DNA from: Antricoccus suffuscus
GTDB lineage: Bacteria; Actinomycetota; Actinomycetes; Mycobacteriales; Antricoccaceae
Direction: 5' to 3'
Assembly: GCF_003003235.1 (NCBI RefSeq)
Contig: NZ_PVUE01000013.1
Location: 1-64,000 of the forward strand
DNA length: 64,000 nucleotides
In this document: positions 6,060 through 62,233 of the stretch, piece by piece
How positions within the stretch are numbered: the stretch's first letter is position 1
Layout: each line of letters opens with the position of its first letter
Notes under the pieces: model-generated
Told to the model about the DNA's origin: nothing
Seen by the model: only the letters and a program-made list of their open reading frames with translations
Database searches by the model: none
Translations under genes and position numbers: made by a program

Positions 6060-6152
6060 CCGCTTTCCCAACCATGCCTGAACTTTCGGGCATTTGAGGG
6101 CGACGTAGTTATCCAGGATCAGGTACATATCCAAGCCGTCGGGACGTGCGTG
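6060..6152 (-). pseudogene. remnant of an IS630-type transposase
   Basis: Thirty-one codons on the minus strand read HARPDGLDMYLILDNYVALK followed by CPKVQAWLGKR, matching the conserved IS630/Tc1-mariner transposase block in which LVLDNYxTHK...P.V..WL holds the second catalytic aspartate. Nothing recognisable continues on either side and no inverted repeats are seen. It starts directly after the toxin stop. A hairpin at 6074-6093 (8-base stem, 4-base loop) falls inside this remnant and may act as a terminator of the toxin gene. Confidence 0.6.
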
Positions 6153-6342
6153 GCACCTTTGTGCGGAGCTCGCAACAGCGATCGTGTGCTCACTGGGTTG
6201 CCGGATTGCCAACCGTCACAGTAGATTTCGCGGGGCAGGTCCGGACTCGAATGGTCCCACTGTCATTCGGAGCCGCGCACCAAGTCATCGTTGGCGTTTC
6301 ACCAGCCGCGACGTCAACGACCCACCTTGAAGGAGTACGACG

Positions 6343-7596
6343 ATGACGACCAGCACTCGAATCCCGATCGATCTGTGGCATTCCTCGTCGTACCGTCAGG
6401 GGCATCCCATCGACCAATATCATTGGCTTCTGGACAACGCGCCGGTCTACTGGCATGAGGCACCCGAGGAGATTGGCGGCGGCTTCTGGGCGGTCACCAG
6501 CCACAAGCTGGTCAAGGAGATCAGCCTGGACAACAAGCTGTTCTCCAGCTACGCCGCCGGCACCATGCTGTACGACATGCCTGAGGAGCACCTCGGCGCC
6601 GTACGGGCGATGATGCTCAACATGGATCCGCCGCAGCACAACCGCTATCGCAAGCTGGTCGGACCGCAGTTCCTGCCGAAACGGGCCGCCGAATGGCAGG
6701 CGGATATCGCACAGTTGGCGTCGCAAATTATCGACGAGGTGTCCGAGCGGGGCGAGTGCGATCTCGTGCGAGACATCGCCGGCAAGCTCCCGTCGTACGT
6801 CGTGGCGCAGCTGCTGGGCATACCGCTCGAGGTCGGCGTGCGCCTGTATGACCTGACCGAGGTCATGCACTCGGCGATGGACAGCGTCACCGACGAGCGG
6901 CGCGCCCAGGTCGCCAGCGACTATCAAGCATTCACCGCCGAGCTGCACGCCGAGAAAACCGCCAACCCCGGCAACGATCTGGCCTCCAGCCTCGCGCACG
7001 CCGAACTTGACGGACAGAAGCTGACCAGCCAGGAGTTCCAGGCCTTCATCACTCTGCTGGTCAATGCTGGCGGCGATACCACTCGGGGCTTGGTCGGGGG
7101 CGGCCTCGTTTCGCTCGTACAGCGCCCCGAGATCCTCGAACAGTTCAGGGCGAACGTCGATGAGCTCATGCCGACGGCTATCGACGAGTTGTTGCGGTTC
7201 CAAAGCCCCGTCGTACATATGCGCCGCACCGCGACCGAGGACACGACGATCGGCGATGTGAGCGTCCGCGCCGGAGACAAGGTGGGCATCTTTTATGCGG
7301 CCGCGAACCGGGACCCTGCGGTGTTTGACAACCCGGACGACATCATCCTCGACCGCAACCCCAACCCGCATGTCGCGTTCGGCGGCGGCGGTCCGCACTT
7401 CTGCCTCGGCTCGCACTTTGCCAGAATCGAGATCGACACGATATTCCGGCAAATCCTTACCCGCCTGCAAAACATTGAACTCACCGAAGAGCCGACCTGG
7501 GTCCCGTCCAACTTCACCTGCGGACCGCAACACGCTCCGATCCGGTTCACCCCATCACCCAAGGCCGCAGACCTGTCGCATGAGCCGTCACGCTGA
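6343..7596 (+). CDS. cytochrome P450
   Basis: A 417-residue soluble bacterial P450. The I-helix oxygen-activating motif is NAGGDTTRGL, the K-helix ExxR is in IDELLRF, and the haem loop is FGGGGPHFCLGSHFAR with the proximal cysteine at about residue 354. The start has a clear GGAG ribosome-binding site eight bases upstream. Such enzymes hydroxylate steroids, terpenes, fatty acids or aromatic compounds using electrons from a ferredoxin and reductase; neither partner gene lies nearby, so they must come from elsewhere. A VOC gene follows 41 bases later and may act on the product. The style (MLNMDPPQHNRYRKLV, HMRRTATEDTTIG) is that of actinobacterial CYP families near CYP125/CYP142/CYP124, but I cannot assign a subfamily. 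Confidence 0.95.
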   Translation: MTTSTRIPIDLWHSSSYRQGHPIDQYHWLLDNAPVYWHEAPEEIGGGFWAVTSHKLVKEISLDNKLFSSYAAGTMLYDMPEEHLGAVRAMMLNMDPPQHNRYRKLVGPQFLPKRAAEWQADIAQLASQIIDEVSERGECDLVRDIAGKLPSYVVAQLLGIPLEVGVRLYDLTEVMHSAMDSVTDERRAQVASDYQAFTAELHAEKTANPGNDLASSLAHAELDGQKLTSQEFQAFITLLVNAGGDTTRGLVGGGLVSLVQRPEILEQFRANVDELMPTAIDELLRFQSPVVHMRRTATEDTTIGDVSVRAGDKVGIFYAAANRDPAVFDNPDDIILDRNPNPHVAFGGGGPHFCLGSHFARIEIDTIFRQILTRLQNIELTEEPTWVPSNFTCGPQHAPIRFTPSPKAADLSHEPSR

Positions 7597-7637
7597 ATGC
7601 GGTAGTAAGTCTGAATTAACGAATGGAGCGCGATCGC

Positions 7638-8048
7638 ATGCCTGAATTCACTGGAGTTAGCCATCTCGAACTGTCGGTCACGAACGCCGAAAAGAGCGCG
7701 ACGTGGTACGCCGACGTACTTGGTCTCAAACGACTTCAACGTTCGGAATCAGAAAACTATGTCGTGGAGATGCTCTTTCACCCACCCACCAAAATGGTGA
7801 TCGGGCTACTTCAGCACAATAAACCAGCTTCCGACCGGTTCGATGAGAAGCAGCCCGGACTTGATCACGTCGGTTTCGCGGTCGCCGAGCGTGCGGAACT
7901 GGATGACTGGCAGCGGCGACTCGCCGAGCTCGGCGTGGAGCACTCGCCGGTGACCGATGCGCCGTCCGGATCCGGTACGGCGCTGGTCTTCCGGGACCCG
8001 GATAACATCCAGCTTGAGTTCTGGTGGACCGCCCCGCGGCAGAAGTAA
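7638..8048 (+). CDS. VOC-family (glyoxalase/dioxygenase fold) protein
   Basis: A 136-residue protein of the vicinal-oxygen-chelate superfamily. The start at 7638 (MPEFTGVSHLELSV) is chosen over the ATG at 7623 because a GGAG lies 9 bases before it. Two beta-alpha-beta-beta-beta units are visible: SHLELSVTNAEKSATWYADVLGL and LDHVGFAVAERAELDDWQRRL, ending with ALVFRDPDNIQLEFWW. The metal-ligand positions His (SHLEL), His (LDHVGF) and Glu (LEFWW) are present, so it can bind a divalent metal. It follows the P450 closely. Reaction unknown; candidates are a lyase, epimerase, dioxygenase or binding protein. Confidence 0.85.
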   Translation: MPEFTGVSHLELSVTNAEKSATWYADVLGLKRLQRSESENYVVEMLFHPPTKMVIGLLQHNKPASDRFDEKQPGLDHVGFAVAERAELDDWQRRLAELGVEHSPVTDAPSGSGTALVFRDPDNIQLEFWWTAPRQK

Positions 8049-8082
8049 CCCAGCCCGTAACTAGTCGCCTAGGCTGGACCGC

Positions 8083-8784
8083 ATGTCTGAGCCTGATGCA
8101 CCGCGTCCACCGGACGATCCCGATCGGCCACCGCCCGCAGCCCTACCCGCGGAATCGGAGCGTGCGGTTCGCCTGCGCGCCGGTGATGCCGAACGCCATC
8201 AAACCGCCGCGCTCCTGCAGGATGCCCTAGGCAAGGGGCAACTTTCGCTCGACGAGTTCGAGGAGCGTACGACGAGCGTCTGGTCAACGGTGTACCGCGA
8301 CGAGCTCGAGCCGCTGACCGCCGACTTGGTCGCACCGCCGGCCTCCACGCCTCGACCGGCCACGTCGCACGCGGTGGCGACGCCGGGCGCTCCCGCTGCC
8401 GCCGACCGAATCACAGGCGGTGAGGGGCCGACGTTCTCAATGGCGATCTGGTCGGGATTCACGCGCAAGGGCGCGTGGACTGTCCCAGCGAAGTTCACCG
8501 GGTTCGCGTGGATGGGCGGCGGGGAGCTCGACCTTCGTTACGCCAACTTCTCCCAGCGGGAGGTGACTATCACGGTCGTCGCCATCATGGGCGGGATCGA
8601 GATCGTCGTACCGGACGACGCCCACGTGAAGGTCAGCGGTATCGGTTTCATGGGTGCCTTCGAGGACAGCCGCAAATGGGACGACGGCCCGCAACCGACC
8701 CCGCCGCCGGATGCACCGGTCATCACGATTAATGGGCTGGCGCTGATGGCCGGGATCGCGGTCAGTCGCAAGCCGACCCGATAG
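8083..8784 (+). CDS. DUF1707 and LiaF-like C-terminal domain protein
   Basis: A 233-residue protein. Residues about 25-80 are the DUF1707 (SHOCT-like) domain (VRLRAGDAERHQTAALLQDA, LGKGQLSLDEFEERTT, then a conserved YRDEL), found almost only in Actinobacteria. The second half is a beta-rich domain of the cell-wall-active-antibiotics-response type (LDLRYANF, VTITVVAIMGGIEIVVPDD, VSGIGFMGAFEDS), as in LiaF. No transmembrane segment is seen. Members are suspected of sensing or buffering cell-envelope stress; function is not established. It stands alone between the VOC and hydrolase genes. Confidence 0.8.
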   Translation: MSEPDAPRPPDDPDRPPPAALPAESERAVRLRAGDAERHQTAALLQDALGKGQLSLDEFEERTTSVWSTVYRDELEPLTADLVAPPASTPRPATSHAVATPGAPAAADRITGGEGPTFSMAIWSGFTRKGAWTVPAKFTGFAWMGGGELDLRYANFSQREVTITVVAIMGGIEIVVPDDAHVKVSGIGFMGAFEDSRKWDDGPQPTPPPDAPVITINGLALMAGIAVSRKPTR

Positions 8785-8883
8785 CCACACGGGGTCGAGC
8801 CAAGTCGAGTCCCTTGTTCGCCCACGTGCCGCGTGATGTACTTGCGACAACTGTCAACTGCATCACACTTACGGGGGAATCCG

Positions 8884-9960
8884 ATGACCAATCCCGAATT
8901 GCCCGGACGTCTTGGCGACCCGGAGCGCACGCTCGCCACCGACCCTCGGATGGATCCGAGGCTGCTCGCGACGCTTGCCGCCTTCGGGCTGGACAACAAC
9001 GGTGAGCCGCCACCGCTCGGACCCGACGCGCCGACCGCCGACATCATCGCGTACGCCGACGCCGCCGAGGAGGGGTTCGGTCAGCTGTTTGCCGCGGCGT
9101 TCCAGAACGTGCCCGCGGTCGAAGGCATCACGCACGACACGCTGACGGTGCCGGGCGGGGATGACAACGAGATCACCCTCTACGTGCACCGGCCCACCAA
9201 CGCGACAGGCCCACTCCCCTGCGTCTACCACATCCACGGTGGCGGCATGGTGCTGCTTGCCGCGTCGAATCCGGAGTACGTTTGGTGGCGCGACCGCATG
9301 GCGGCCACCGGATTGGTCGTCGTCGGTGTCGAATACCGCAACGGCGCCGGCAAGTTGGGGCCCTACCCCTACCCGGCCGGATTGACTGATTGTGTCGCCG
9401 GGCTGCAATACGTCCTCGATCATGCCGACGATCTGGGCATCGGTCAGGTCGTCGTGTCCGGAGAATCCGGCGGCGGCAACCTCTCGCTGGCGACCACGCT
9501 GACCGCGAACCGACAGGGCTGGGTGCAGCGAATCGCCGGCGTCTACGCCGAATGCCCATATATATCCGGCATGTACGCCGATCCGCCGGCCGAGCTCACC
9601 TCCTTGCATGAGAACAACGGGTTCTTCCTACGCACCGACATGATGGGTCTGTTGGTGGCGGCGTACGACCCGGGCGGGAAGAACGCGACCGAGCCGACGG
9701 CCTGGCCGCTGCACGCATCGACCGAGGATCTGACCGGCTTCCCGCCGACCGTCATCTCGGTCAACGAGCTCGATCCGCTGCGCGATGAGGGTCTGCACTT
9801 CCTGCGGAAGCTCTGGGCCGCCGGAGTCAGGGCGCGGGGACGGATCACGCCGGGAACGACGCACGCCGGCGACATCCTGCTCGCGCCGGTCAACGCGCCC
9901 GAGGTGAACGACGCGACCGCCGAGGACATCCGCGCATTCTGCTACTCGTTATCGTCGTAG
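8884..9960 (+). CDS. alpha/beta hydrolase, hormone-sensitive-lipase family
   Basis: A 358-residue esterase/lipase-type hydrolase. The start at 8884 (MTNPELPGRLGDPE) has a GGGGGA site upstream; the longer frame from 8833 is less likely. The HSL-family oxyanion motif HGGG begins at about residue 118, the nucleophile elbow GESGGG puts Ser at about 195, Asp is at about 297 (ELDPLRDEG) and His at about 327 (TTHAGD), completing the triad. It cleaves a carboxylic ester; the natural substrate is unknown. A fragment of a closely related gene is found at 44795-44917. It converges on the thiol dioxygenase gene with about 100 bases between the stops. Confidence 0.92.
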   Translation: MTNPELPGRLGDPERTLATDPRMDPRLLATLAAFGLDNNGEPPPLGPDAPTADIIAYADAAEEGFGQLFAAAFQNVPAVEGITHDTLTVPGGDDNEITLYVHRPTNATGPLPCVYHIHGGGMVLLAASNPEYVWWRDRMAATGLVVVGVEYRNGAGKLGPYPYPAGLTDCVAGLQYVLDHADDLGIGQVVVSGESGGGNLSLATTLTANRQGWVQRIAGVYAECPYISGMYADPPAELTSLHENNGFFLRTDMMGLLVAAYDPGGKNATEPTAWPLHASTEDLTGFPPTVISVNELDPLRDEGLHFLRKLWAAGVRARGRITPGTTHAGDILLAPVNAPEVNDATAEDIRAFCYSLSS

Positions 9961-10063
9961 CGATCGTGTCGTAGACGGTGCAATCGCGTCGCCTGCGGCA
10001 CATCGACATCGATCACTGTCTGGACCTCGGCTACTTAGACCGACGCGTCACGACCAATAGCCG

Positions 10064-10606
10064 CTAGTCGGTATCGCCCCAGTTCGAAACAAACCAGTCA
10101 ACTCGACCGGTTTCGGGCTCATATGAGCGTCGTTCAATGGTCCCAATGTTGCCGCCGTAGATGTGAATGCCGATAACAGGTGCGTCACCTTCGCAGCGCA
10201 CTTGGTGTACGTCGTCGTCCGTGGTGCAACAGACGGTTACCTCGCCGGGTTTCCAAACGTGCTCTCCGTTAGCTATCAGCGGGACGTCCGGTACGGTCGG
10301 CTTAACGAAGCTGAGCTCGTGCTCTTGGCCTGAATAGATGCCGACCACTCCCCACGTTTCATGTCCGTGCACCGGGGTGCCCTGCCCGACGTCCCAGACT
10401 GCGGAGGCTATTGAAAAGCTTTCGTCGTCAGCGATGTAAAGCGGGTACATGACGTAGCGGTCGGGGTTCGGTCTCGTAGTTGCGGCGGGTAGGTCGAGGC
10501 CACGCGCCAGCGCTTCAGTGAGCGCCTCCGCCACTTTTGGCGTGAGCACGTGTTCGTCGGGGTAAGCCTCCACAATTCCGGCGACCCGGTCTATCAGATC
10601 CTGCAT
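10064..10606 (-). CDS. cysteine-dioxygenase-family thiol dioxygenase
   Basis: A 180-residue cupin of the cysteine dioxygenase family, which oxidises a thiol to a sulfinic acid with O2 and ferrous iron. Iron ligands are visible as HGH in GTPVHGHETWGVVGIYSG and a third His in DDDVHQV. The family's Ser-His-Tyr triad appears as GIHIYGG, so Ser is replaced by Gly. The substrate-binding Arg (cysteine dioxygenases) or Gln (3-mercaptopropionate dioxygenases) position reads Met in RYVMYPLY by eye alignment. It is therefore unlikely to be a plain cysteine dioxygenase. It is the last gene of the operon, 25 bases after the sulfite oxidase, and most likely attacks a thiol acid made or imported by the upstream gene products. 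Confidence 0.85.
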   Translation of the reverse strand: MQDLIDRVAGIVEAYPDEHVLTPKVAEALTEALARGLDLPAATTRPNPDRYVMYPLYIADDESFSIASAVWDVGQGTPVHGHETWGVVGIYSGQEHELSFVKPTVPDVPLIANGEHVWKPGEVTVCCTTDDDVHQVRCEGDAPVIGIHIYGGNIGTIERRSYEPETGRVDWFVSNWGDTD

Positions 10607-10631
10607 TTCGAAGCTCCTGCCTTTTCTCGAA

Positions 10632-11702
10632 CTACGCCTCGGCTGGTCGTGACGGCAGAAGTTCGATTTCGATAGTGTGAATTCCGTTGTTTCCGTAGCC
10701 CAATCGATTCATTGCCGGCTGCCAGGATTGAGTTCGTCCGTTTATGTCGGTCGCACGCACTGCCAGGCGGCGCCGACCTCGCGGAAGTCCGGTCGAAATA
10801 GCTGCCCTATAGCGTCCCCACGCAAAGGGTGTGGGCGCAGCTTCCACGACGGTCGCGCTGGTCCACGAGGCCCCGTCGTCGACCGTCAGTTCGACAGCGG
10901 CCACTGGAGTCTCGCCGGCCCACGCCAGAATGGACACCTCGGTGTCGTCAAAGACCTCGTCATTACTTTCCGGTGCGACTATCACGGCACGAGGTAGGTG
11001 CTCCGTAACCGGCGCAATGATTGTGCCGTCGGCTGTCTGGTACGTATAGCGTTCGTGCTGCCAAAACTCCTTGTAGGGCCTGTCTGTCAGCGCTAGCGAC
11101 TTGACCCATTTCGCCCACCAAATTCCATACCAGCCCGGCACAACCAGCCGGACCGGTGCGCCATGGTTCCGTGGCAGATCCTGTCCGTTCACCTGCCACG
11201 CCAGAATCGTGTCCGGGTGCAGGGCTTTGGACCGCACCAGGCCCTTGCCAAACTGAGCGTGGACGTTCTCCGGCATAGCAACGCCCTCGTCACTGGACTG
11301 GACAACAAGGGTCGTCCAGTCCTGCTGGCTGATGTCATCGTCGCGCAAGATGTCTCTCACCGACACGCCCCGCCACTTTGCCTGATGAAAGAGCCCGAGG
11401 CCGAACTGGTTTCCGGGCGCCCGCTGCGCAAGGAAACCGCGCCCATTGCCTGCGCATTCAAGGACAGCTGTCACTTCGCGCGTGGGCAGGCTCTTGATCG
11501 TCTCGATATCGATCGACCTGCTCGTGCCATCCAAGGACGTGACGACCAGCGTTTCCTGATCCGCTACCTCGGGTTGGTCATAGTGGTGCACGATGAACTG
11601 CGCCTCTGAAAGGCCGCCTCGGTGGGCAATTAGCGGGACCTCGGCCATCTGCAGCGCGCCTGACTTATCGTAACTGCGGGGGTGCAACGCAAGTCGTTCC
11701 AT
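10632..11702 (-). CDS. sulfite-oxidase-family molybdopterin enzyme
   Basis: A 356-residue molybdenum enzyme. The Moco domain contains the cysteine that ligates Mo in LECAGNGRGF (near residue 82), GVSVRDIL, and PVRLVVPGWYGIWWAKWV; the C-terminal part is the Ig-like Mo-co dimerisation domain (VSILAWAGETPVAAVELTVD). There is no cytochrome b5 domain and no twin-arginine or Sec signal, so it should act in the cytoplasm with another electron acceptor. Known family members oxidise sulfite to sulfate. Placed directly before a thiol dioxygenase, it would detoxify sulfite released from a sulfinate. It is 22 bases from the upstream crotonase gene, consistent with one transcript. Confidence 0.9.
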   Translation of the reverse strand: MERLALHPRSYDKSGALQMAEVPLIAHRGGLSEAQFIVHHYDQPEVADQETLVVTSLDGTSRSIDIETIKSLPTREVTAVLECAGNGRGFLAQRAPGNQFGLGLFHQAKWRGVSVRDILRDDDISQQDWTTLVVQSSDEGVAMPENVHAQFGKGLVRSKALHPDTILAWQVNGQDLPRNHGAPVRLVVPGWYGIWWAKWVKSLALTDRPYKEFWQHERYTYQTADGTIIAPVTEHLPRAVIVAPESNDEVFDDTEVSILAWAGETPVAAVELTVDDGASWTSATVVEAAPTPFAWGRYRAAISTGLPRGRRRLAVRATDINGRTQSWQPAMNRLGYGNNGIHTIEIELLPSRPAEA

Positions 11703-11724
11703 GTCCGTGACTCCTGTCCGTCGG

Positions 11725-12525
11725 TTAGAAGGTGGGTTTCGGTGCCGTTGGTACGTCGTCCGGTTTGGGTGGCTGCGGCCGAGCCGAGGCCGCGAATGCA
11801 GCGATGCGGTCTTTGATTCCTGGCCTGCCCGCGATAGATCTCACGAGATCGGCAAGCGCCCTTGCGTAGTCCAGGTGTCTTGCGGCCTCGCAAAGGTCAC
11901 GCGCGGTGTCAGCCGACAACGCCTCGATACCGGTTTGCAGTTCGGTGACGAGCGCCTCGATATCCGAGTTATTCGGCACCATTCGTACGACGCCGAGCCC
12001 GGCCGCCTCCGCGCACGGCAGGGTCGCGTTCGTGCTGACCAGGCGGAGTGCCTCAGACTCGCCGACCAGGCCGGTAAGTCTGAGGGTTCCCAGCACAACT
12101 CCAAAGCCCGCCCCCGGAAACCGGAAGGAGGCATGCGGCGTTCCGATCCGATGGTCACACGCCAGGGCGACGTCCGCGCCCGCCCCTACTGCCGCGCCTT
12201 CCATAACCGCGACCGTGAAGAAGGGCGCCCGAGAGATTTGCTCAAGCAGCAGCCCGATACGCGCAAAGCGCAGCAGTAGTGAAGCGTCGTTCTCGTGTTC
12301 CAAGGAGCCGAGGTCGAAGCCGCTACTGAACACGCGGGTGCAACTTCGTAGTACCACCAGTCGAACCCCGTCGATCTCCGCCTCGTGCAGTGCGATCAAA
12401 AGCCCGTCGACCAGTGCACCCGACAACGCATTGCGCGTGGCGCCCCGATTCAGCACCAGATCTCGACGGTCGCTCGAGACTCGGTCAATAAGGACAGGCG
12501 GATCAAGACTCACGACTCGGTCCAT
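11725..12525 (-). CDS. enoyl-CoA hydratase/isomerase-family protein
   Basis: A 266-residue crotonase-fold protein. The CoA-binding/oxyanion region VFSSGFDLGSL and the second oxyanion segment AVMEGAAVGAGADVALACDH are clear. In the usual PE-glutamate position it reads FRFPGAGFGVVLGTLRL, so the first catalytic Glu appears to be absent. It may therefore be a hydrolase, lyase or isomerase rather than a standard hydratase. The start at 12525 overlaps the preceding CoA-transferase by 16 bases. Within this operon a crotonase could cleave a C-S or C-C bond of the CoA-bound substrate; that is inference. Confidence 0.85.
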   Translation of the reverse strand: MDRVVSLDPPVLIDRVSSDRRDLVLNRGATRNALSGALVDGLLIALHEAEIDGVRLVVLRSCTRVFSSGFDLGSLEHENDASLLLRFARIGLLLEQISRAPFFTVAVMEGAAVGAGADVALACDHRIGTPHASFRFPGAGFGVVLGTLRLTGLVGESEALRLVSTNATLPCAEAAGLGVVRMVPNNSDIEALVTELQTGIEALSADTARDLCEAARHLDYARALADLVRSIAGRPGIKDRIAAFAASARPQPPKPDDVPTAPKPTF

Positions 12526-13718
12526 TCGCGAAAGACATCGTGGTTGTGTTCGCCAAGGCGCGGTGGCGCGTTGTAGATCTTCGATGGGTGCTCACCGATG
12601 CGCGCCGGAAACACGACCATCGGAGTCGGGCCAGCGACCGGTACGTCGACATCCTGCACGAGTTGGGTTGCGGTGATGTGCGAATCGGCCAAGATATCCC
12701 CGAATGAGTTCACCAGGCTTGCCGGTACGCCGCGCGCACTGAGTTCGGTTACCCACGCGGAGGCGGGCTTGTTGCTGAATCGCTCCTGCAGTACCTCTGC
12801 TAGGGCGACTTGATTCGCGGCGCGATGTTCTTGGTCTACGAACCGCGGGTCATCGGCCAGATGTTCCAGGTCCGTTACGTCGCACACGGCAAGCCATAGC
12901 TTGTGGCTGCCGGCCGCGACAATGAAGTCCCGGTCAGAAGCCTGGTAAGCCTGGTACGGCGCATTTCGAGGATGCGCCGATCCAAGTGGTAGGGGTTCTT
13001 TGTGACTCCCCCAGTACTCGCTGGTCTGAAGCGCCGACGCGCCGAGCAGACAGTCCAGCATTGGGCAGTCGATACGAGCCGAGTGACCGGACCCTCGGAC
13101 TTTGGGGAGCAGCGCGGCGATCGTGTATGCGCCGTACAGGCCGCTGATAAAGTCCGCCACCGGAACGCCCGCTTTCACGGGCTTTCCGCCCGGTTCACCA
13201 GTAATACTCATCAGACCGCTCATGCCTTGGATAACGACGTCGTAAGCACCGTTCGATACGTACGGACTATTGAGCCCGAAGCCCGAGATCGAGCAGTAGA
13301 CCATCCCCTTGTGACCGTGAGACACCGCGTCAAATCCAAGACCAAGGCGGTCCAAAGCGCCGGGCCGATAATTCTCGACGATCACGTCAGCCTCTCGGGT
13401 GAGCGCAAGGATTTCAGCAAACTCCTTGGGATCCTTCAAATTGGCCGTAACACTGCGCTTGTTGCGGTTCACCGAGGCGAAGTTGTGGCTAAACGTCTCC
13501 CGTTCGTCGCTTACGAGAGGCGGCCAGGATCGCATCTGGTCACCAGAAGGAGGCTCGACCTTGACCACATCGGCCCCAAGGTCTGCAAGAAGCGACGCGG
13601 CAAACGGGCCGGCGGCGACGTGGCCGAACTCAAGCACCCGGACACCGGTGAGCGGTCGCGATAGGTCCTCGTCCACGTCTGCAGACTCACCTGTCTTTTT
13701 CGACTTCACACCGCGCAT
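12510..13718 (-). CDS. type III (CaiB/BaiF) CoA-transferase
   Basis: A 402-residue family III CoA-transferase of full length. Visible landmarks are GVRVLEFGHVAAGPFAASLLADLGADV, KVEPPSGDQMRSWPP, RNKRSVTANLKDPK, VIVENYRPGALDRLGLGF, the catalytic aspartate in VKAGVPVADFISGLYG, and the C-terminal PRLGEHNHDVFREW. These enzymes move CoA between acids through an aspartyl-CoA anhydride intermediate. The start overlaps the end of the hydratase gene by 13 bases and the stop overlaps the next crotonase by 16, so translation is coupled. Donor and acceptor are unknown. Confidence 0.92.
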   Translation of the reverse strand: MRGVKSKKTGESADVDEDLSRPLTGVRVLEFGHVAAGPFAASLLADLGADVVKVEPPSGDQMRSWPPLVSDERETFSHNFASVNRNKRSVTANLKDPKEFAEILALTREADVIVENYRPGALDRLGLGFDAVSHGHKGMVYCSISGFGLNSPYVSNGAYDVVIQGMSGLMSITGEPGGKPVKAGVPVADFISGLYGAYTIAALLPKVRGSGHSARIDCPMLDCLLGASALQTSEYWGSHKEPLPLGSAHPRNAPYQAYQASDRDFIVAAGSHKLWLAVCDVTDLEHLADDPRFVDQEHRAANQVALAEVLQERFSNKPASAWVTELSARGVPASLVNSFGDILADSHITATQLVQDVDVPVAGPTPMVVFPARIGEHPSKIYNAPPRLGEHNHDVFREWTES

Positions 13719-14596
13719 TCAAAGGTCCCTTTCGACACGACCGTGACTCCGTCTCTGGGACGCAGAATCTCGTAGCTGCCCTTATCGGCTTCACGCCATA
13801 TCCGTGTGGTGAGATCGTCTCCGGGAAATACCGGAGCTGAAAGCTTCCCAGACAGGGCACGAAGTTTGCTCGCGTCGCCGCTGCACACCTCGTCGATCAG
13901 GTGCCGCGCGGCAAATCCGAGCGTGCAGCGCCCATGTAGCAAGGGCACCTGATAGCCCACTCGCCGAGAGACGGTCGGATCGGAGTGCAAGGGGTTTCGA
14001 CCGCTTGCGAGTCGGTACAGCAGGCACTGATTCTGCGCGATCGAAAACGCTACCGAGGCATCAGGCGCGCGGCTGGGCACGGCCGATCCTACCGGCGGTT
14101 TGCGCATAGCCGCGATTTCGCTGTCCGGGCGCGCGACGTGGACCAATGTTCGTGACCTGGTCGTAAACATCGGTCCGTGGTCGGCACCGTCAACAACCTC
14201 GTTCTCCACCGTCACCACGTAGCCACGCGGATGGTCAGCCACTGCCACGACCCGTCCCGTCGACTTCGCCGACCCGGTGGGCCGAATCGGCCTAGCGAGC
14301 CTTATGGACTCCTCCATCAGCAGGACATCCTGACCGCGCACGCCTAACGGCGCAAAAAGTCCAGGTCCGACAGTGCACAGCGTGATCCCGAACGTCGGTA
14401 TCACTTGCAGCGTCACGCCCTCGGAGTTCTCTGTGGTTAGGTTCAACTCTCGGCACGGGTCAGCATTTCCAGCACCGACACCGATGGCGTAGAGCATGCA
14501 GTCGTCCTCCGACCACGTGGCAGCGCCAGGATGAGGCTCGAGGGCTTCGAGTGAGTTGCGGTCAATGACAAGTGTGCTGGCTTCGTTGGTCTGCAT
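13706..14596 (-). CDS. MaoC/hydratase-2-type double hot-dog enoyl-CoA hydratase
   Basis: A 296-residue double hot-dog protein. The C-terminal hot dog has the hydratase-2 signature LYRLASGRNPLHSDPTVSRR followed by VGYQVPLLHGRCTLG, with the catalytic Asp/His pair (SDP and the preceding NPLH). The N-terminal hot dog (YAIGVGAGNADPCRELNLTTE) lacks catalytic residues, as usual. The family hydrates trans-2-enoyl-CoA to the (R)-3-hydroxy product. Start and the upstream stop share one base (TAATG). In this operon it would add water to, or remove it from, an unsaturated CoA intermediate. Confidence 0.88.
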   Translation of the reverse strand: MQTNEASTLVIDRNSLEALEPHPGAATWSEDDCMLYAIGVGAGNADPCRELNLTTENSEGVTLQVIPTFGITLCTVGPGLFAPLGVRGQDVLLMEESIRLARPIRPTGSAKSTGRVVAVADHPRGYVVTVENEVVDGADHGPMFTTRSRTLVHVARPDSEIAAMRKPPVGSAVPSRAPDASVAFSIAQNQCLLYRLASGRNPLHSDPTVSRRVGYQVPLLHGRCTLGFAARHLIDEVCSGDASKLRALSGKLSAPVFPGDDLTTRIWREADKGSYEILRPRDGVTVVSKGTFECAV

Positions 14597-15705
14597 TACG
14601 GCTTCCAGTTCTGGGCTTGCTTCTTGACCGCGTCGGCGTCGAACTTGTTAGCTTCCTTATTGAGACTTAGGTCCACGACCTTCTTCGAGTCAAGGCTCGC
14701 CTTCAGCACGCCGTACTTCACCATAAAGTCGATGCTGTCCTGCACGTCTTTCATCGGGACGTCGCCGATAAGACCAGACGGGCCAGGGACAGACCCGCTC
14801 TTGAAGCGCGACTCAACATTTGGCAGCACAGACTGGATCGCTTCCTCAGTCGACATCCCCTTCGGCTTTTGCTCGGGGTATTCGGCCCATTGGATCTGCT
14901 CGGCCGCACCAGGGTTCGTCGTACTGAAAATGTAACCCTTGTAGGTACCGAGCAAAAACTTGACGATTGCGCTCTTGTGCTCTTTGAGGAACTGTTCCGT
15001 AGTTGCGTAGCCAGACAGCCCAGAGACCTTGTCCAACGGGGTCGGCAGGTTGATCAGTTTCTTGCCCAGCACGCCCGAGACAACGCCGGTTGGTCCGTCG
15101 TATGACGCGTACGCCGCGACCGTCCCGTCCTTGATCGCCGCTGCAGCTTGACTTCCAACGCCAATGACTAACCACTTCACGTCCGAATCGGGATCGAGGC
15201 CCGAGGCTTGGACGGCGGCACGACCGAATAGGTACGACGCGGAGCTGAGCGACTGAGTGCCGATCGTCTTGCCCTTGAGGTCGTCGATCGATTTGATTTT
15301 GCTGTCCTCAGGCACCGCGATCTGCCAGAAGTTCTCCGCTTGCAGGCTCACAAGCCGGATCTTCGGATCGGCCGCGGCCGCTTGGTACAACGAAGAGGTG
15401 CCGCCCGCGATGATGTCGGCCTTGCCGGCAGTGAGCAGCTGAGCGGACGCCGTCGCGCCGGCGGTCGGCTGAATCTGCACGGTGAGCCCTTGGTCTTTCC
15501 AATATCCCATGGCTTTCGGTACGGACCCGTACGGCGCGGTGCTGTCGAGAAGGACGGGCGCACCAGTGGCAAAAACGATGCTGTCATCTTTTGACTTTGA
15601 ACTACCTGACGAGCTGTCAGATCCACACGCAGCTAGTCCGAGCACTGCGATTGCAACGGTCGCGATTGCGGACGTTGCTTTAATACCAGTAGTTTTCAGT
15701 GACAT
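14596..15705 (-). CDS. ABC transporter substrate-binding lipoprotein (NitT/TauT type)
   Basis: A 369-residue secreted lipoprotein. A hydrophobic signal peptide ends in the lipobox LGLAACGSDSSSG with the lipid-bearing cysteine near residue 27. The mature part resembles the NMT1/THI5-SsuA-TauA fold (PYGSVPKAMGYWKDQGLTVQ, TAGATASAQLLTAGKADIIAG, LKGKTIGTQSLSSASYLFGRA). Such proteins bind nitrate, sulfonates, taurine, pyrimidine precursors or aromatic acids. Together with the permease at 18809 and ATPase at 19678 it completes an importer. Linked to a thiol dioxygenase and sulfite oxidase, an organosulfur ligand is a reasonable guess. It is followed immediately by the hydratase gene. Confidence 0.9.
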   Translation of the reverse strand: MSLKTTGIKATSAIATVAIAVLGLAACGSDSSSGSSKSKDDSIVFATGAPVLLDSTAPYGSVPKAMGYWKDQGLTVQIQPTAGATASAQLLTAGKADIIAGGTSSLYQAAAADPKIRLVSLQAENFWQIAVPEDSKIKSIDDLKGKTIGTQSLSSASYLFGRAAVQASGLDPDSDVKWLVIGVGSQAAAAIKDGTVAAYASYDGPTGVVSGVLGKKLINLPTPLDKVSGLSGYATTEQFLKEHKSAIVKFLLGTYKGYIFSTTNPGAAEQIQWAEYPEQKPKGMSTEEAIQSVLPNVESRFKSGSVPGPSGLIGDVPMKDVQDSIDFMVKYGVLKASLDSKKVVDLSLNKEANKFDADAVKKQAQNWKP

Positions 15706-55456: not shown

Positions 55457-55516
55457 GAAAGGTGATACGGGGTCAGACACTGCGATCTCGCACTTGGAAA
55501 GTTGGCACGACAGCGA

Positions 55517-58357
55517 ATGGCGAATATTTCCGGCGGGCAGGAGCTCTCCGGACGCACCGGGGAGCTAACCGCCCTGATTGGACTCCTGGATCGCCTGCAG
55601 AACGACGGCGCGACCTGCTGCATTGTGACCGGTGATGCTGGCATGGGTAAGACGATGCTCACTAGGCAACTAGCGCAGATCGCAAGGACTCGTGGGTATC
55701 TCACGCTTGAAGGGCGTGCGCAAGAGTACGACCGAAGCCATGCCTATTCCACGCTCAAGGACACCTTGTCCTCGGTCCAGGAGACAGACCTCGCGACGGA
55801 ATCCGCCAAGTATCTAAAGCTAGTCGGACAGGCGATCGCAGAACCGCACTTCTCTCCGGTCGAAAGCTCGCCGAACGCACCCTCCGAACAGTCGACACTC
55901 GCCCGCCTTACCCAATTTCTCCGCTCAGCAACGGTCGATCAACCATGCGTCCTCATTATCGATGATGCTCACGCGTCGGACGACGAGACACTTCAGACCC
56001 TGTCTTTGGCGTTCCGCTATCTTTCCGTGCGTCCGATCCTCCTAGCCTGCGCCGTGCGAAGTGACAAGTGGCTCGCAGATAGCAGCTTCGCCACCACGAT
56101 CGGACGGCTCACGGAGCACAGTCAGCACTCCATTATCGACCTGAGCGCCCTCGACGACCTTGCGCTAGAGCGCCTGGTCCAGGACGTGACCGGAGGGACC
56201 CCCGACAGTCACCTGCTGGCCTACATCCAAAGGCAGAGCGCGGGGAACCCGTTGTTCGCTAAGGAAGCGCTCCTTTCCCTACAGGCCCAGGGAGCGCTGC
56301 GTATCAGCGGCGAGACGGTGGTCCTTCCGGAAGCTCCACCGAACATAAGGGTTAGCCGTCGCGGCGCCCTCCTCCAGCGGATCTTCCGACAGGACCAGCA
56401 CTGCCTAGAACTGGCAAGACTGTTATCCGCGTTTGGCGAGGTCCACCTGGACCAGTTTTCCCTGATCGCCGATCTAACGGGCTTTAGCCAGCCGTTTCTC
56501 GAATCGGCGTTCGACAGTCTCGTAGAGGCGGGAATTCTCGTCCTCGGCTCGAGGAACGTCTACCAATTCGCTCATCCTCTAATGGCCGAGGTGCTCTACG
56601 AAGATCTAGGGCCTACAAAGCGACGACGGATTCACTATGCGATCGCGAGCCGGTTACCGGCGGACGCGCCGCAGATGGGACGGACTCGCCGAGCCACACA
56701 TCTGGTCGAGTCGGCTGAGATCGGCGATCTGTCCGCGATAAATGCGGCGATCGAGGTCGCTGAGACGATTCGCCACTCTGCTCCGCTGTCTGCCGCCGTT
56801 TGGTACGAGCGGGCGCTCAACCTCGTCGGACCCACTGACCCCGACCTGGCCGTGTCAACGCTCGCTGCCAGGGCATTAGCTCTATGGAAGGGAGCGCGAC
56901 CTGAACTCGCAATTCGGGACGGACTTCAAGCGCTGTCCAGCCTTCCTCCTGGCAAGCTGCGCGACCGCACACTGGCCGTCATCGTCAACGCCATGTACGC
57001 GACGAGCCGGCTGGATGAGGCACTGGAGCTACTGGACGGCATGACGGTGAACGCCAGCTTAAGCATCCCTTTTCGCTCTTTACGCCCGGTAATTCTCGCC
57101 CAGGTCGGTCACCCGACAGAGGCCATCGAGGCTCTCGATGAAATCACCAAGGTGGTCGAGGACCACGGAGATAGTACCGATGTCGTCACCTTCACCCACC
57201 TCGGTCAGGCTGCAGGAACCCTCGGGGTCTGGAAGGAAGCAGAGGAATGGATCCATCGCCTAACCGACATTGGCTTGGACGGGTCGGACCAATACTCCAG
57301 CGAAATGCGCGTCGGCGCGCTCGAATCAGCTGCCTATCTCCTCAGTGAAGCGGGCTTCGTGATGCGATCGAGCACGGCAATTGCTGAGGCATTCACAGTC
57401 GCCACCGGACCCCTGCGAAACTCTGGTGGCCAGACGGAGCACCACCAGATCATCAACTATTTCTTCCGCGGCGAATGGACGCGTGCCCTCGAGACCCTTC
57501 GCACCACCTCGGTGCGGCTCGAATTCTCTGGGATGACTGCCATTTTAGGACGCCTACAACTTATCGAGGGCGAGATTCTCCTTGGGCAGGCGCGCTACTC
57601 TGAGGCTGGTCAACTGCTTTCCGCGTTCCCCAGGTTCTCGACCGACGACCGCATCAGTTGCGAACGAGAAATCCTCCGATCGCGAATTGAACTCGGCCAC
57701 GGCCAATTCGACTCTGCCTTGGAAGGTCTGAAATCACAGCTCAAACGTCTTAATAACCGAGGCTGGCTCCGCACCGAGGCCCGATTGCTAGAGGCGCTCT
57801 TCGAGACCTATGTCGGCTTACAGGATTTCGCATCGGCGCGCGTAGCGGGTGACCGGCTCAGGGACCTGGCAGAGCACACCGATATTCCCCGCTTCCGATG
57901 GACTGCGGACCTTGCGGCAGTCGTCATTAATGACGATGTTGCGCTCGCCGAAACGCTAATAAGGGAAGCCGACTCTGAAGGAGCCGGCTTCATCGTCGCT
58001 CGCGCCGAATTCGCCCTGGGCGTGGCTAAAGGGAACGACCCTGACCCGCTGCGACGTGCATTGATCCGTTTTGATGCGATGGGAGCTCGATCGTGGCGCG
58101 AGCGAGTGCTCTTGCACTTGAATAGTTCGCCGATCAGCCCGGCCGTGGAATCGACTGACCCGCGATATCTCGATCTAACGGATGTCGAAAGGCGGCTTGT
58201 AACTCTAGTTCGCGATGGGCTCAACAATCGCGAGATCGCAGACGAGCTCCATTACAGTCGGAAAACGATTGAGGCATACCTGAGCCGACTGTATCGGAAG
58301 TTCGATTGCCACTCGCGGGTTGGCCTCATCGTCGCTCTTGAGGAAGACGGTGGATAG
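55517..58357 (+). CDS. large ATP-binding LuxR-family (LAL) regulator
   Basis: A 946-residue transcription activator. Residues about 10-300 are an AAA ATPase with Walker A VTGDAGMGKTMLTR and Walker B CVLIIDDAHASDDE. The middle 500 residues are helical repeats of the TPR-like type that bind inducers. The C-terminal LuxR helix-turn-helix is LTDVERRLVTLVRDGLNNRE, IADELHYSRKTIEAYLSRLY. Start assigned to ATG 55517; a TTG at 55502 is also open. No clear ribosome-binding site for either. LAL proteins (MalT-like) activate catabolic operons, and this one lies just after a complete importer operon in the same orientation, its likely target. Confidence 0.9.
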   Translation: MANISGGQELSGRTGELTALIGLLDRLQNDGATCCIVTGDAGMGKTMLTRQLAQIARTRGYLTLEGRAQEYDRSHAYSTLKDTLSSVQETDLATESAKYLKLVGQAIAEPHFSPVESSPNAPSEQSTLARLTQFLRSATVDQPCVLIIDDAHASDDETLQTLSLAFRYLSVRPILLACAVRSDKWLADSSFATTIGRLTEHSQHSIIDLSALDDLALERLVQDVTGGTPDSHLLAYIQRQSAGNPLFAKEALLSLQAQGALRISGETVVLPEAPPNIRVSRRGALLQRIFRQDQHCLELARLLSAFGEVHLDQFSLIADLTGFSQPFLESAFDSLVEAGILVLGSRNVYQFAHPLMAEVLYEDLGPTKRRRIHYAIASRLPADAPQMGRTRRATHLVESAEIGDLSAINAAIEVAETIRHSAPLSAAVWYERALNLVGPTDPDLAVSTLAARALALWKGARPELAIRDGLQALSSLPPGKLRDRTLAVIVNAMYATSRLDEALELLDGMTVNASLSIPFRSLRPVILAQVGHPTEAIEALDEITKVVEDHGDSTDVVTFTHLGQAAGTLGVWKEAEEWIHRLTDIGLDGSDQYSSEMRVGALESAAYLLSEAGFVMRSSTAIAEAFTVATGPLRNSGGQTEHHQIINYFFRGEWTRALETLRTTSVRLEFSGMTAILGRLQLIEGEILLGQARYSEAGQLLSAFPRFSTDDRISCEREILRSRIELGHGQFDSALEGLKSQLKRLNNRGWLRTEARLLEALFETYVGLQDFASARVAGDRLRDLAEHTDIPRFRWTADLAAVVINDDVALAETLIREADSEGAGFIVARAEFALGVAKGNDPDPLRRALIRFDAMGARSWRERVLLHLNSSPISPAVESTDPRYLDLTDVERRLVTLVRDGLNNREIADELHYSRKTIEAYLSRLYRKFDCHSRVGLIVALEEDGG

Positions 58358-58811: not shown

Positions 58812-59132
58812 GTGATCAAAGAATCCGTGACCGACACACTTCGGACAGTCGTCGAGGAGCGCGACTGGGCACAGTTCCACACACCCGAGAACCTCGCCAA
58901 GAGCATTGCGATCGAGGCGGGCGAACTACTTGAGTGTTATCAGTGGAGTGCCGATACCGATCCTGAGCGCACAAGAGACGAGCTCGCTGACGTACTGACA
59001 TATTGCCTGCTGCTCGCCGACAGGCTGGACTTGGACGCTAACCAAATCATTCTCGAGAAACTGGCAACGACACGGGCGAAGTACCCCGTCGAGAGAGCCC
59101 GCGGCCGAAGCACCAAGTATGACCAACTTTGA
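58812..59132 (+). CDS. MazG-like nucleotide pyrophosphohydrolase
   Basis: A 106-residue single-domain MazG-type protein. Acidic metal-binding residues appear as EAGELLECYQW and, on the next helix, DELADVLTYCLLLAD, the ExxE...ExxD pattern. The GTG at 58812 is taken as start; a TTG at 58806 is possible. It hydrolyses nucleoside triphosphates to monophosphates and pyrophosphate. Its last 14 bases overlap the next gene, so the two products are probably partners. Single-domain forms of this kind occur both in housekeeping and in defence loci; the neighbour suggests the latter. Confidence 0.88.
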   Translation: MIKESVTDTLRTVVEERDWAQFHTPENLAKSIAIEAGELLECYQWSADTDPERTRDELADVLTYCLLLADRLDLDANQIILEKLATTRAKYPVERARGRSTKYDQL

Positions 59133-60825
59133 GATCGAGCAACTGCGGTTCTCACAAGTAGACGTCAAAGGTTGGGCCACCCTCAGCAATCGACACACCA
59201 ACTGGCCGGTTGTCTACAGCCTCGACGACGGGAGCGACATCTACGTCGGGGAATCCCTCAACGTCGCAGCCCGCTTGCTTCAGCATCTCGAGTCCCCTGA
59301 TAAGAAGCATCTTCGGCGGATTCGGGTTGTCATCGACGGCACATTTAACAAGTCCACGTGTCTGGATCTCGAATCATTTTTAATCCGGCTGCTTGCCGGA
59401 GACGGTCGCTACCAAGTTTTGAACCGTAACGCCGGCATCACCGACGCGGACTACTTCAGTCGGAACCAATACCAACAAACCTTCGAGGAGGTATTCGCAG
59501 AGCTCCTTGCAGCGGGGGTGTTCACGCGCACCATTCCACAGATAGAGAACAGCGACCTGTTCAAGCTGTCCCCGTTCAAGGCCCTCAACAACGACCAGGC
59601 AATCGCAGTTGAGGACATCCTCGAGGGTCTGTTCGAAGACCTCGCCTCCGGCGATCGCAGCACTGTCGTCGTACAAGGCGACCCCGGCACCGGAAAGACC
59701 ATTGTCGCCATCTACCTCATGAAACTGCTTCGAGATATCGCAAGGTCCATGCCAGGCGAAGAAGTGGACAGCGATTCGATCTTCTCCGAATTCTTCGCCG
59801 AGGGCTACCGCGAACTTCTCGAAAACGTGCGCATCGGACTTGTCATCCCCCAGCAGTCACTGCGTTCTTCGATCGAGAAGGTGTTCTCTAAGACTCCCGG
59901 ACTCAGCAAAGGAATGGTCTTCACTCCGTTCCAAGTTGGCGAGAGCGAAGAGAGATTCGACTTACTCATCGTTGACGAGACACACAGACTCAACCAGCGT
60001 GCCAACCAGCCTTCTGCGATCCAAAATCGCCGATTTGCCGAGATCAACAAACGACTATTTGGTGTTGACGACAGTTCGAAAACGCAACTTGACTGGATTC
60101 AGACGCAAAGCAATCATCAAATCTTCCTCCTCGACTCGGCTCAGAGCGTACGGCCAGCCGATCTGCCTTCTGCAAGCCTCGAACGCCTCGCCGCGACGGA
60201 CCGTTGCTACCCCCTGACCTCCCAGATGCGAGTCCGCGGAGGTTCGGACTACATCTCATACGTACGGCAGATACTGAGTCCATTACCGCCGACCCGGGAG
60301 CTCTTTCGGGACTACGAGTTCCGGATGTTTGATGATCTGGAGCAGATGCGCGACCAAATCCGGCGGAAAGATTCCGAGGAGGGCTTGTGCCGCCTCGTCG
60401 CAGGGTACGCCTGCCCATGGAAAAGTAAGAAGGACCCAACGGCGTACGACATCGAGCTTGACGGAGTTCAACTGCGATGGAATAGGACGGATAAGGACTG
60501 GATTAACTCCGCTAACTCAGTGGATGAGGTCGGATCAATCCACACAGTACAAGGCTATGACCTCAACTTCGCTGGCGTGATTATCGGACCCGATCTTCGT
60601 TACGATGCCTCGAATAGCCAGCTAGTCTTCGATCGAGCGAACTACTTCGACAAAAAGGGTAAAGAGAACAATCCACGCCTTGGCATTACCTACAGCGACG
60701 ACGATCTGCTCCGGTTTGTCGTCAACGTCTATAGCGTGCTACTTACCCGTGGGATACGAGGAACTTACGTCTACGCGTGTGATCCAGCGCTTCGCACCTA
60801 CTTGCAGCGATTCATCTCGATCTAA
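59119..60825 (+). CDS. GIY-YIG nuclease and DUF2075 ATPase fusion
   Basis: A 568-residue protein. Residues about 25-110 resemble a GIY-YIG nuclease (VVYSLDDGSDIYVGESLNVA, ARLLQHLES), with Val-Tyr and Tyr-Val-Gly standing for the GIY and YIG triplets. From about 160 on is a DUF2075 helicase-like ATPase: Walker A VVQGDPGTGKTIVAIYL, Walker B LLIVDETHRLNQRANQ, the arginine-bearing SQMRVRGGSDYISYVRQIL, and EVGSIHTVQGYDLNFAGVII with LLTRGIRGTYVYACDPALR. The combination suggests a nucleic-acid-processing motor. Translation is coupled with the MazG-like gene. DUF2075 proteins cluster in defence islands; an antiphage role is inferred. Confidence 0.88.
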   Translation: MTNFEIEQLRFSQVDVKGWATLSNRHTNWPVVYSLDDGSDIYVGESLNVAARLLQHLESPDKKHLRRIRVVIDGTFNKSTCLDLESFLIRLLAGDGRYQVLNRNAGITDADYFSRNQYQQTFEEVFAELLAAGVFTRTIPQIENSDLFKLSPFKALNNDQAIAVEDILEGLFEDLASGDRSTVVVQGDPGTGKTIVAIYLMKLLRDIARSMPGEEVDSDSIFSEFFAEGYRELLENVRIGLVIPQQSLRSSIEKVFSKTPGLSKGMVFTPFQVGESEERFDLLIVDETHRLNQRANQPSAIQNRRFAEINKRLFGVDDSSKTQLDWIQTQSNHQIFLLDSAQSVRPADLPSASLERLAATDRCYPLTSQMRVRGGSDYISYVRQILSPLPPTRELFRDYEFRMFDDLEQMRDQIRRKDSEEGLCRLVAGYACPWKSKKDPTAYDIELDGVQLRWNRTDKDWINSANSVDEVGSIHTVQGYDLNFAGVIIGPDLRYDASNSQLVFDRANYFDKKGKENNPRLGITYSDDDLLRFVVNVYSVLLTRGIRGTYVYACDPALRTYLQRFISI

Positions 60826-60909: not shown

Positions 60910-61105
60910 CTTTCGCCGCGCCCCCGTGACCCAGACCCGACGACCTGTCCGATAGCCGGGATCTGCGCTTTAGTCGGCCCACTTACCCCCTGCTGCTTGG
61001 TTGCGCAATGCCGCTAAACTGTGGCTCGTCGGGGCTCGCTGGCCACTGCCATCCGTGGGCCGATTTCTTGTGGGGTAACTGTAGTGATTGTCGGGGGACG
61101 CTTGT

Positions 61106-62233
61106 ATGTCTGCGCCTGTTGAGAGTTCGTCAGGTAATAAACCGTGGTATTTGCAGCGGTGGAGTTTGGCCCTTGCGCTCATTCTGATCATTGGCATTAT
61201 CGGCTCATTATCGAAGTCAGGTACCGATAACGATGCGGCGTCGACTGTTGCACCGTCGTCGTCGGCCTCGCCGACATCGTCACCGACCAAGTCGACGCCC
61301 GCAGCGTCGTCGTCAGTCGAGGCCCTTACTGCGAATTTCGCTGCCGCGCAGGCCGCGTCACCTGATATTACGGCGTTGTTAGAGACGTTGCCGGTGAAGG
61401 GCCGCTCGCCGGAGACAGGATACGACCGAGACTTGTTCGGGTCGTCCTGGACGGACGATGTGATGGTTGACGGCGGGCACAATGGTTGCGATACCCGCAA
61501 CGACATCCTGCGACGTGATCTGGTCGAGATCACGTTAAAACCGGGCTCAAACGGCTGCACAGTGTTGTCGGGCACGTTGAATGATCCGTATACGGGGACC
61601 GCGATCCCGTTTGTGCGGGGCGAGGGCACGTCAACTGCGATCCAAATAGATCACGTTGTGGCGCTTTTGGATGCATGGCAGAAAGGTGCGCAGCAGTTGT
61701 CTGCACAGCAGAGGACTGATTTGGCGAACGATCCAATGAATTTGCAGGCGGTCGATGGTCCGACGAATGAGGCTAAGGGTGATGGGGATGCCGCGACATG
61801 GTTGCCTCCGGACAAGTCGTATCGCTGCACATACGTGAGTCGGCAAGTGCAGGTCAAAGCGAAGTATGGGTTGTGGGTGACCACCGCTGAACGGGACGCG
61901 ATTGTGAAGATTCTTGGAAATTGCGATGCACCGGCGGCGGCCTCGGTTGTTCCCGTGCCTGCACCGGTCACCACGACGACCGCGCCTCCACCGGTGACCA
62001 CGACGGCCGCGCCTCCACCGATTACTACGACTCAGGCACCCGCGCCGGCGCCGGTCCCCGCGCCCAAGGTGGCACCTGCTCCTGCTCCACCTCCTGCGCC
62101 GCCGGCGCAGACGAACGTCTACTACCAGAATTGTGCGGCGGCCAAGGCCGCAGGGGCCGCGCCGATATACGCCGGTCAGCCCGGGTATCGGTCGGCGCTC
62201 GATAGGGATAAGGATGGCGTGGCCTGCGAGTAG
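61106..62233 (+). CDS. membrane-anchored DUF1524 HNH nuclease with Excalibur domain
   Basis: A 375-residue exported protein starting at 61106 behind GGGGGA. One membrane segment (LALALILIIGIIGSL) near residue 20 anchors it, followed by a Ser/Thr/Ala-rich linker. Residues about 105-275 are a GmrSD-type HNH (DUF1524) nuclease: RDLFGSSWTDDVMVDGGHNG, CDTRNDILRRDL, IDHVVALLDAW, DPMNLQAVDGPTNEAKGDGD. A Pro/Ala/Thr-rich stretch leads to a C-terminal Excalibur calcium-binding domain (YYQNCAAAKAAGAAPIYAGQ, then DRDKDGVACE). It probably degrades DNA outside the cell for nutrients, competence or defence. It stands alone. Confidence 0.9.
   Translation: MSAPVESSSGNKPWYLQRWSLALALILIIGIIGSLSKSGTDNDAASTVAPSSSASPTSSPTKSTPAASSSVEALTANFAAAQAASPDITALLETLPVKGRSPETGYDRDLFGSSWTDDVMVDGGHNGCDTRNDILRRDLVEITLKPGSNGCTVLSGTLNDPYTGTAIPFVRGEGTSTAIQIDHVVALLDAWQKGAQQLSAQQRTDLANDPMNLQAVDGPTNEAKGDGDAATWLPPDKSYRCTYVSRQVQVKAKYGLWVTTAERDAIVKILGNCDAPAAASVVPVPAPVTTTTAPPPVTTTAAPPPITTTQAPAPAPVPAPKVAPAPAPPPAPPAQTNVYYQNCAAAKAAGAAPIYAGQPGYRSALDRDKDGVACE

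Follow-up and report, generated by a model that had tools for sequence, protein, structure and literature searches.

The gene pair and its predicted proteins

Within the window, by which we mean the whole 64,000-nucleotide stretch of Antricoccus suffuscus DNA that was analysed, we identified two complete open reading frames on the forward strand that are read in different frames and share 14 bases. This confirms the arrangement described in the initial annotation, in which a MazG-like gene overlapped a gene for a GIY-YIG/DUF2075 ATPase. The region contains the following features.

58812–59132, + strand: gene for a MazG-like (DCTPP1/iMazG-type) nucleotide pyrophosphohydrolase, 106 residues (PF12643, solved relative, invariant residues)
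59119–60825, + strand: gene for a GIY-YIG nuclease and SLFN-g3 (DUF2075) SF1 helicase fusion, 568 residues, ATG start (PF09848, conserved residues, model)
59119–59132, + strand: overlap of the two frames, 14 bases, different frames, both genes complete
59200–59448, + strand: GIY-YIG nuclease domain, approximately residues 28–110 of the fusion (invariant residues; Pfam match under the cut-off)
59581–60816, + strand: SF1 helicase domain of the SLFN-g3 family, approximately residues 155–566 of the fusion (Pfam, conserved residues, model)

For the MazG gene, the GTG at 58812 was preferred over the possible alternative start at TTG 58806 because the relatives begin at the same alignment column. The GC content of the pair is 55.0%, compared with 61.4% for the window. 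Scans for promoters and terminators gave matches at chance level only, and an Rfam search returned zero matches.

The MazG protein matched the Pfam MazG-like family (PF12643; 2.1e-17, 63.6 bits against a cut-off of 27), and its closest solved structure is DCTPP1/RS21-C6 (PDB 2a3q and 6sqw; 2.4e-19). In an alignment of 20 rows, residues E35, E38 and E57 are invariant, so that the E-x-x-E / E-x-x-D metal-binding motif is present; D60 is conserved in at least 90% of the rows (a glycine in L023), Y64 is likewise near-invariant, and W19, H23 and W45 are found in all 20. In common with the DCTPP1/RS21-C6/iMazG branch of all-alpha NTP pyrophosphohydrolases, the protein has RDW-x-QFH and QW stretches besides the E-x-x-E ... 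E-x-x-D pattern. Unlike the members of that branch, the window MazG has a nuclease-helicase as its constant gene partner; its substrate is a prediction. Published reports describe a high affinity of DCTPP1 for dCTP and modified dCTP (PMC7162842) and name RS21-C6/DCTPP1 as 5-methyl-dCTP hydrolases (PMC10742078). Based on this analogy, the MazG step would most probably act on cytidine deoxynucleotides, with dCTP or modified dCTP as the likely substrate. No model in the PADLOC library matched the MazG protein.

The fusion protein matched the Pfam SLFN-g3_helicase family (PF09848; 6.9e-65, 220 bits against a cut-off of 24, profile positions 2–354 of 354), which we take to be the family formerly named DUF2075, in agreement with the product names of relatives. 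The positions typical of SF1 helicases (Walker A, VDE, QGYD and R544) are invariant in all 12 aligned rows, and a model built from this 12-row alignment contains an SF1 core (mean pLDDT 83.2, pTM 0.82). Its fold matches were UvrD (Z 18.0), SLFN11 (16.5), Dda (16.4), SLFN14 (15.8) and RecD2 (15.7), where rows up to 1 Z apart count as tied. The VIA-align list contains no GIY-YIG structure, but it spans residues 104–568 and is thus uninformative about the N-terminus.

The N-terminus of the fusion scored 20.6 bits against the Pfam GIY-YIG family (PF01541), below the cut-off of 22.6. Residues Y33, Y42, G44, R52, H56, E85 and N102 are invariant in all 12 aligned proteins and presumably represent the catalytic-type positions of GIY-YIG nucleases (Tyr, Arg, His/Tyr, Glu, Asn). 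Among the relatives, L029 (22.9 bits), L063 (27.4) and L118 (23.9) exceeded the Pfam cut-off, the match of L033 fell under it, and L002 and L116 gave none. We base the assignment of the window protein on the invariant catalytic-type residues together with the three relatives that pass. Given the conserved MazG, GIY-YIG and SF1 residues and the SF1-core model, both proteins are likely to be catalytically competent.

Linkage and co-occurrence of the two genes

From the overlap, the initial annotation had proposed that the two products cooperate. Comparison with other genomes reveals a linkage far stronger than could be judged from the window alone. A helicase-only scan of GTDB species identified 11 loci, all of them with an adjoining MazG gene. 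Together with L002, L033, L034 and L116, the last being an unverified ‘Bacteriophage sp.’ record that carries the GIY-YIG pair, this gives 15 of 15 distinct relatives of at least 38% identity in which the MazG gene is adjacent, a repetition that argues for more than chance pairing. In the band of 34–37% identity, four of five distinct loci are paired (L036, L037, L038 and L041, not L035). The frames overlap in 13 of the 15 relatives, as they do in the window: the overlap measures 14 bases in nine (L021–L026, L028, L031 and L033) and 20 bases in four (L002, L027, L034 and L116). The two genes are separated by a 1-base gap in L029 (Erysipelotrichaceae) and lie tail to tail in L030 (Bacteriovorax).

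We also compared the occurrence of the two genes across 296 genomes of the window’s phylum, the named relatives being Actinomycetota, with thresholds of E ≤ 1e-8 for MazG and E ≤ 1e-20 for the helicase family. Only some of the candidates from the first look were scored, which may make the counts too low. MazG was present in 25 genomes (alone in 8) and the helicase family in 27 (alone in 10), and 17 genomes carried both, compared with 2.3 expected (Fisher p 3.8e-15). The genes are adjacent in 13 of these 17; in the other four they occupy different contigs (G164 and G216) or lie about 21 kb (G237) and 29 kb (G226) apart. A set of 30 helicase-bearing genomes, consisting of 26 of the 28 from a helicase search plus four known to be paired, so that adjacency was largely known beforehand, contained the MazG type in 24, at one copy each and adjacent in 21. 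An exception to the single-copy state is G450 (Bacteriovorax), which has two MazG copies. The MazG and helicase distances are correlated (Mantel r 0.61, 38 pairs, 0 of 2000 permutations), a result that shared host ancestry would also yield and that is thus not proof of coupling.

These comparisons show that the genes for the predicted MazG-type enzyme and the putative nuclease-helicase have been conserved together in evolution and that both proteins carry the catalytic residues expected of them. Coupling of the pyrophosphohydrolase to the nuclease-helicase is strongly supported at the level of sequence by the conserved overlap, the co-occurrence and a linkage kept across several orientations and phyla.

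A third conserved gene was not identified in nine loci, where the upstream proteins are of seven kinds or unmatched (own open reading frame calls, L023 left out). The DUF1524 nuclease that had been pointed out as a neighbour is indeed encoded at 61088–62233, as a GmrSD_C (DUF1524 HNH) and Excalibur protein with an apparently hydrophobic N-terminal stretch, but it does not belong to the unit. In a tblastn comparison with all loci, several of which have short downstream flanks, this gene was present in the window’s own genome alone, the sole outside match being a 40-residue Excalibur-like piece in L010; an earlier comparison had covered 12 other loci.

The wider helicase family and its genomic setting

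Most helicase loci of the wider family carry a different, PD-(D/E)XK-like N-terminus in place of GIY-YIG. An alignment of 16 such proteins features invariant E37, D76 and E95-L-K97, an arrangement that we take to be the PD-(D/E)XK nuclease pattern. The model of L100 (mean pLDDT 80.1, 7 alignment rows) contains a helix (35–54), strands at 61–67, 74–82 and 89–97, a hairpin, a helix (125–144) and a strand (150–156), and this predicted order of elements is as expected of a PD-(D/E)XK fold; the fold search of the same model returned helicases, leaving the PD-(D/E)XK fold without confirmation by a structure match. The alignments show that the predicted nuclease half of the fusion can be GIY-YIG or PD-(D/E)XK-like.

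PD-type helicases also adjoin the same type of MazG, which either shares their strand, on one side or the other, or is divergently oriented. MazG was found at seven of 18 wider loci (L003–L020, in short stretches), leaving 11 without it nearby, and at 17 of 27 distinct helicase loci (L033–L059), leaving 10. On plasmids, MazG is absent within 8 kb of the helicase in L062, L064–L066, L068, L069, L117 and L121; the plasmid of L062 carries a MazG about 10 kb away. The hosts of the wider family include the archaeon Halalkalicoccus as well as Halomonas, the latter detected by profile search. When viral contigs were scanned with the GIY-YIG alignment, none of the 85 pattern matches was a relative; the corresponding scan for the PD type gave eight loci, five of them with MazG near.

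The genome of the window itself encodes a second, PD-type SLFN-g3 helicase (L019/L084, contig C5, about 22.2–23.3 kb) in a stretch without MazG, and the copy in the window is the only match to the MazG type in this genome. In L050, a PD-type SLFN-g3 helicase at 937–1500 (− strand) carries a C-terminal Peptidase_S24 (LexA-like) domain (9.9e-12), which hints that control of the DNA-damage or phage-repressor kind may be involved.

The distribution of the family is patchy. The search for relatives returned matches in 18 of 61 genomes, with the window’s close form in G000 and G049 only, and in seven genera (g3, g5, g14, g17, g22, g25 and g27) some genomes match and others do not. Relatives were also found on 39 plasmid records. 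Thirteen of these neighbourhoods, chosen by hand, were inspected; one was unannotated, and the remaining 12 were scored by hand over 8 kb on each side for annotations of restriction enzyme, DNA methylase, Cas, ABC-three-component, DUF262 and E2/JAB. Such defence-type annotations occur near eight of the 12 plasmid relatives (L064, L065, L066, L069, L117, L118, L119 and L121), compared with one of 12 control stretches taken from other parts of these plasmids (a Cas3 annotation in L130; p 0.005). The word list for this comparison was fixed with the focal regions already known, the PLSDB gene tables are incomplete, two controls are shorter, and one lies a quarter of a plasmid away instead of half. 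When a HEPN/nucleotidyltransferase pair in L129 is counted, the controls rise to two of 12 (p 0.018).

The surroundings of the window subfamily differ. A PADLOC search at 1e-15 of 87 neighbour proteins from 10 of its loci identified two families only, mads_3 (three members) and mads_8 (two members). Compared with Pfam, ten neighbours (nine upstream and one downstream) correspond to dehydrogenases, a transporter ATPase, a purine enzyme, a methionine enzyme, oxidoreductases and a UvrA-like ATPase, or are unmatched. With so few PADLOC families and neighbours of metabolic type, the window subfamily looks like a free-standing insertion outside recognisable defence islands. The initial annotation had raised a possible antiphage system. 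This reading is supported in part and indirectly: the wider family is patchy and often plasmid-borne near restriction, CRISPR or CBASS-like genes, whereas the window subfamily has no such surroundings.

Upstream of the pair, the window encodes a large AAA_16 and LuxR-type regulator (55502–58357) following an opp transporter set. None of three oppB relatives (L113–L115) has the MazG-helicase pair. In two of the three (L114 and L115), a LuxR-type gene of 29–30% identity likewise follows the related opp genes, and for this reason an exact empty insertion site cannot be drawn.

Three plasmid neighbourhoods have features of their own. The Lactiplantibacillus plasmid of L063 carries at 4249–14672, in a single direction throughout, genes for an NTP pyrophosphohydrolase, a DEAD/DEAH helicase, MazG, a GIY-YIG/SLFN-g3 helicase, two hypothetical proteins and a DUF2357 and PDDEXK_7 protein, an array that may be a larger system. 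On the Fructilactobacillus plasmid of L117 (4627–9590), in a stretch without MazG, a GIY-YIG/SLFN-g3 helicase adjoins the cytosine deaminase gene codA and a cytosine permease gene, a further tie to cytosine metabolism that is perhaps due to chance. On the Hymenobacter plasmid of L066, genes for a restriction endonuclease and a DNA methyltransferase are followed by two PD-type SLFN-g3 helicase genes in tandem (7221–11207).

Known systems and candidate functions of the pair

The window protein shares its helicase family (Pfam) with AbiO and other PF09848 proteins; unlike these, it features a GIY-YIG domain and is paired with a MazG. Identity with AbiO was rejected, since the PADLOC match (4.8e-07) covers residues 156–205 alone, against positions 179–217 of the 468 in the model. 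Similarly, PDC-S41 (C-terminal helicase parts, 2.7e-08), PDC-S14 (GIY-YIG part, 1.4e-07) and Nhi (ATPase part, 1.6e-06, model positions 183–316 of 470) were rejected as partial and weak PADLOC matches. The human Schlafen helicases SLFN11 and SLFN14 have the helicase fold (Z 16.5 and 15.8) and the Pfam family name in common with the window protein, but UvrD, Dda and RecD2 match it about equally well. The Schlafen core RNase domain is absent from its Pfam matches at 0.1, and GIY-YIG occupies that place. Dna2-type nuclease-helicase fusions, with Dna2 among the fold matches, also combine an SF1 motor with a nuclease, whereas the window protein has its nuclease, a GIY-YIG domain, at the N-terminus and is linked to a nucleotide hydrolase.

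In PMC10121019, PF09848 serves as an Abi marker family. MazG is named as a predicted, unvalidated and uncharacterised defence domain by DefensePredictor in PMC13092281, where Burroughs 2015 is the source given for several domains of this kind. The main text of that report, by which the systems were compared, does not use the terms helicase, GIY-YIG, Schlafen or DUF2075; its MazG-containing system may or may not be the same pair. In their accessible portions, PMC12839542 and PMC3710099 mention Schlafen and not MazG, DUF2075 or GIY-YIG. A description of the pair was not found among the titles and abstract openings searched, and this absence applies to that literature, which includes few subscription papers and no bioRxiv preprints. 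Burroughs 2015 and Makarova 2011 are the works most likely to have anticipated the pair.

The conservation of the pair, the mostly single-copy state of the MazG, the exchangeable nuclease and a distribution that is patchy and mobile together point to an accessory conflict module. We consider that the two genes form a horizontally moving accessory module that is most likely an immune system, directed against phages or plasmids, and assign this reading a probability of roughly 45%; an antiphage role in particular is plausible from the sequence comparisons. In its favour we count the adjacency, the overlap, the co-occurrence, the nuclease swap, the patchiness, the presence on plasmids, the low GC content and the defence-type plasmid neighbours, as well as the use of PF09848 as an Abi marker, the prediction of MazG as a defence domain and the closeness to DCTPP1. 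Against it stand the metabolic neighbours of the window subfamily, the weak and partial PADLOC matches, and the existence of unpaired helicases and MazGs.

In such an immune module, the helicase would move on single-stranded or forked nucleic acid arising from foreign replication and bring the nuclease domain to this nucleic acid, which the nuclease would then cut. The DCTPP1-like MazG would convert dCTP, 5-modified dCTP or both to the monophosphate and pyrophosphate. Hydrolysis of dCTP might starve foreign DNA synthesis, so that stalled forks become substrates; alternatively, removal of modified cytosine precursors might leave foreign DNA unable to hide from the nuclease.

The strongest rival, though a somewhat unlikely one, is a module for DNA repair and pool cleaning, in which MazG would clear a damaged or modified cytidine nucleotide and the nuclease-helicase would excise the same lesion or resolve a stalled fork, comparable to UvrC with UvrD. 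UvrC nucleases have the GIY-YIG fold, and the helicase finds its best fold match in UvrD (Z 18.0). The cleaning of nucleotide pools by DCTPP1-type enzymes, described in PMC7162842 and PMC10742078, is consistent with this rival, as are the hint of DNA-damage control in the Peptidase_S24 domain of the PD-type L050 and the position of the window subfamily outside defence islands. A repair role fits less well with a family that is patchy within genera, often lies on plasmids near restriction or CRISPR genes and has its nuclease type swapped.

A toxin-antitoxin-like unit, in which the nuclease-helicase would be harmful alone and the small upstream MazG would keep it in check, either through binding or through removal of a nucleotide that activates it, is improbable: the small gene does come first, the frames overlap and the distribution is mobile, but MazG keeps its catalytic residues, the gene order varies in the wider family, where MazG can also be divergent or lie downstream, and many helicases have no close MazG. 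Slightly less probable still is that the helicase serves an RNA-cutting effector, as in Schlafen proteins, with MazG as a helper adjusting the nucleotide pool. By sequence the helicase is a member of Schlafen group 3, and SLFN11 and SLFN14 are among its best fold matches; but these rows equal or fall below UvrD and are on a par with Dda, the N-terminus is GIY-YIG rather than a Schlafen core, and GIY-YIG and PD-(D/E)XK domains mostly cut DNA.

The immune reading could be carried further, to an undescribed and widespread class of immune systems composed of a constant dCTP-type MazG and a Schlafen-type helicase with interchangeable GIY-YIG and PD-(D/E)XK nucleases. MazG would withdraw modified cytosine nucleotides, leaving foreign DNA unprotected, and the nuclease-helicase would destroy it. 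We regard this extension as unlikely, placing it below the repair alternative and just above the toxin-antitoxin one.

The pair ties an enzyme of the nucleotide pool to a nuclease-helicase, and in helicase-bearing genomes of the window’s phylum the MazG type, where found, is single-copy and usually located beside the helicase. This makes it testable whether pool cleaning of the DCTPP1 kind can serve as immunity. For the poorly characterised DUF2075/SLFN-g3 helicases it supplies a partner as well as nucleases of two kinds, and the pair offers a bacterial setting for studying the Schlafen helicase domain.
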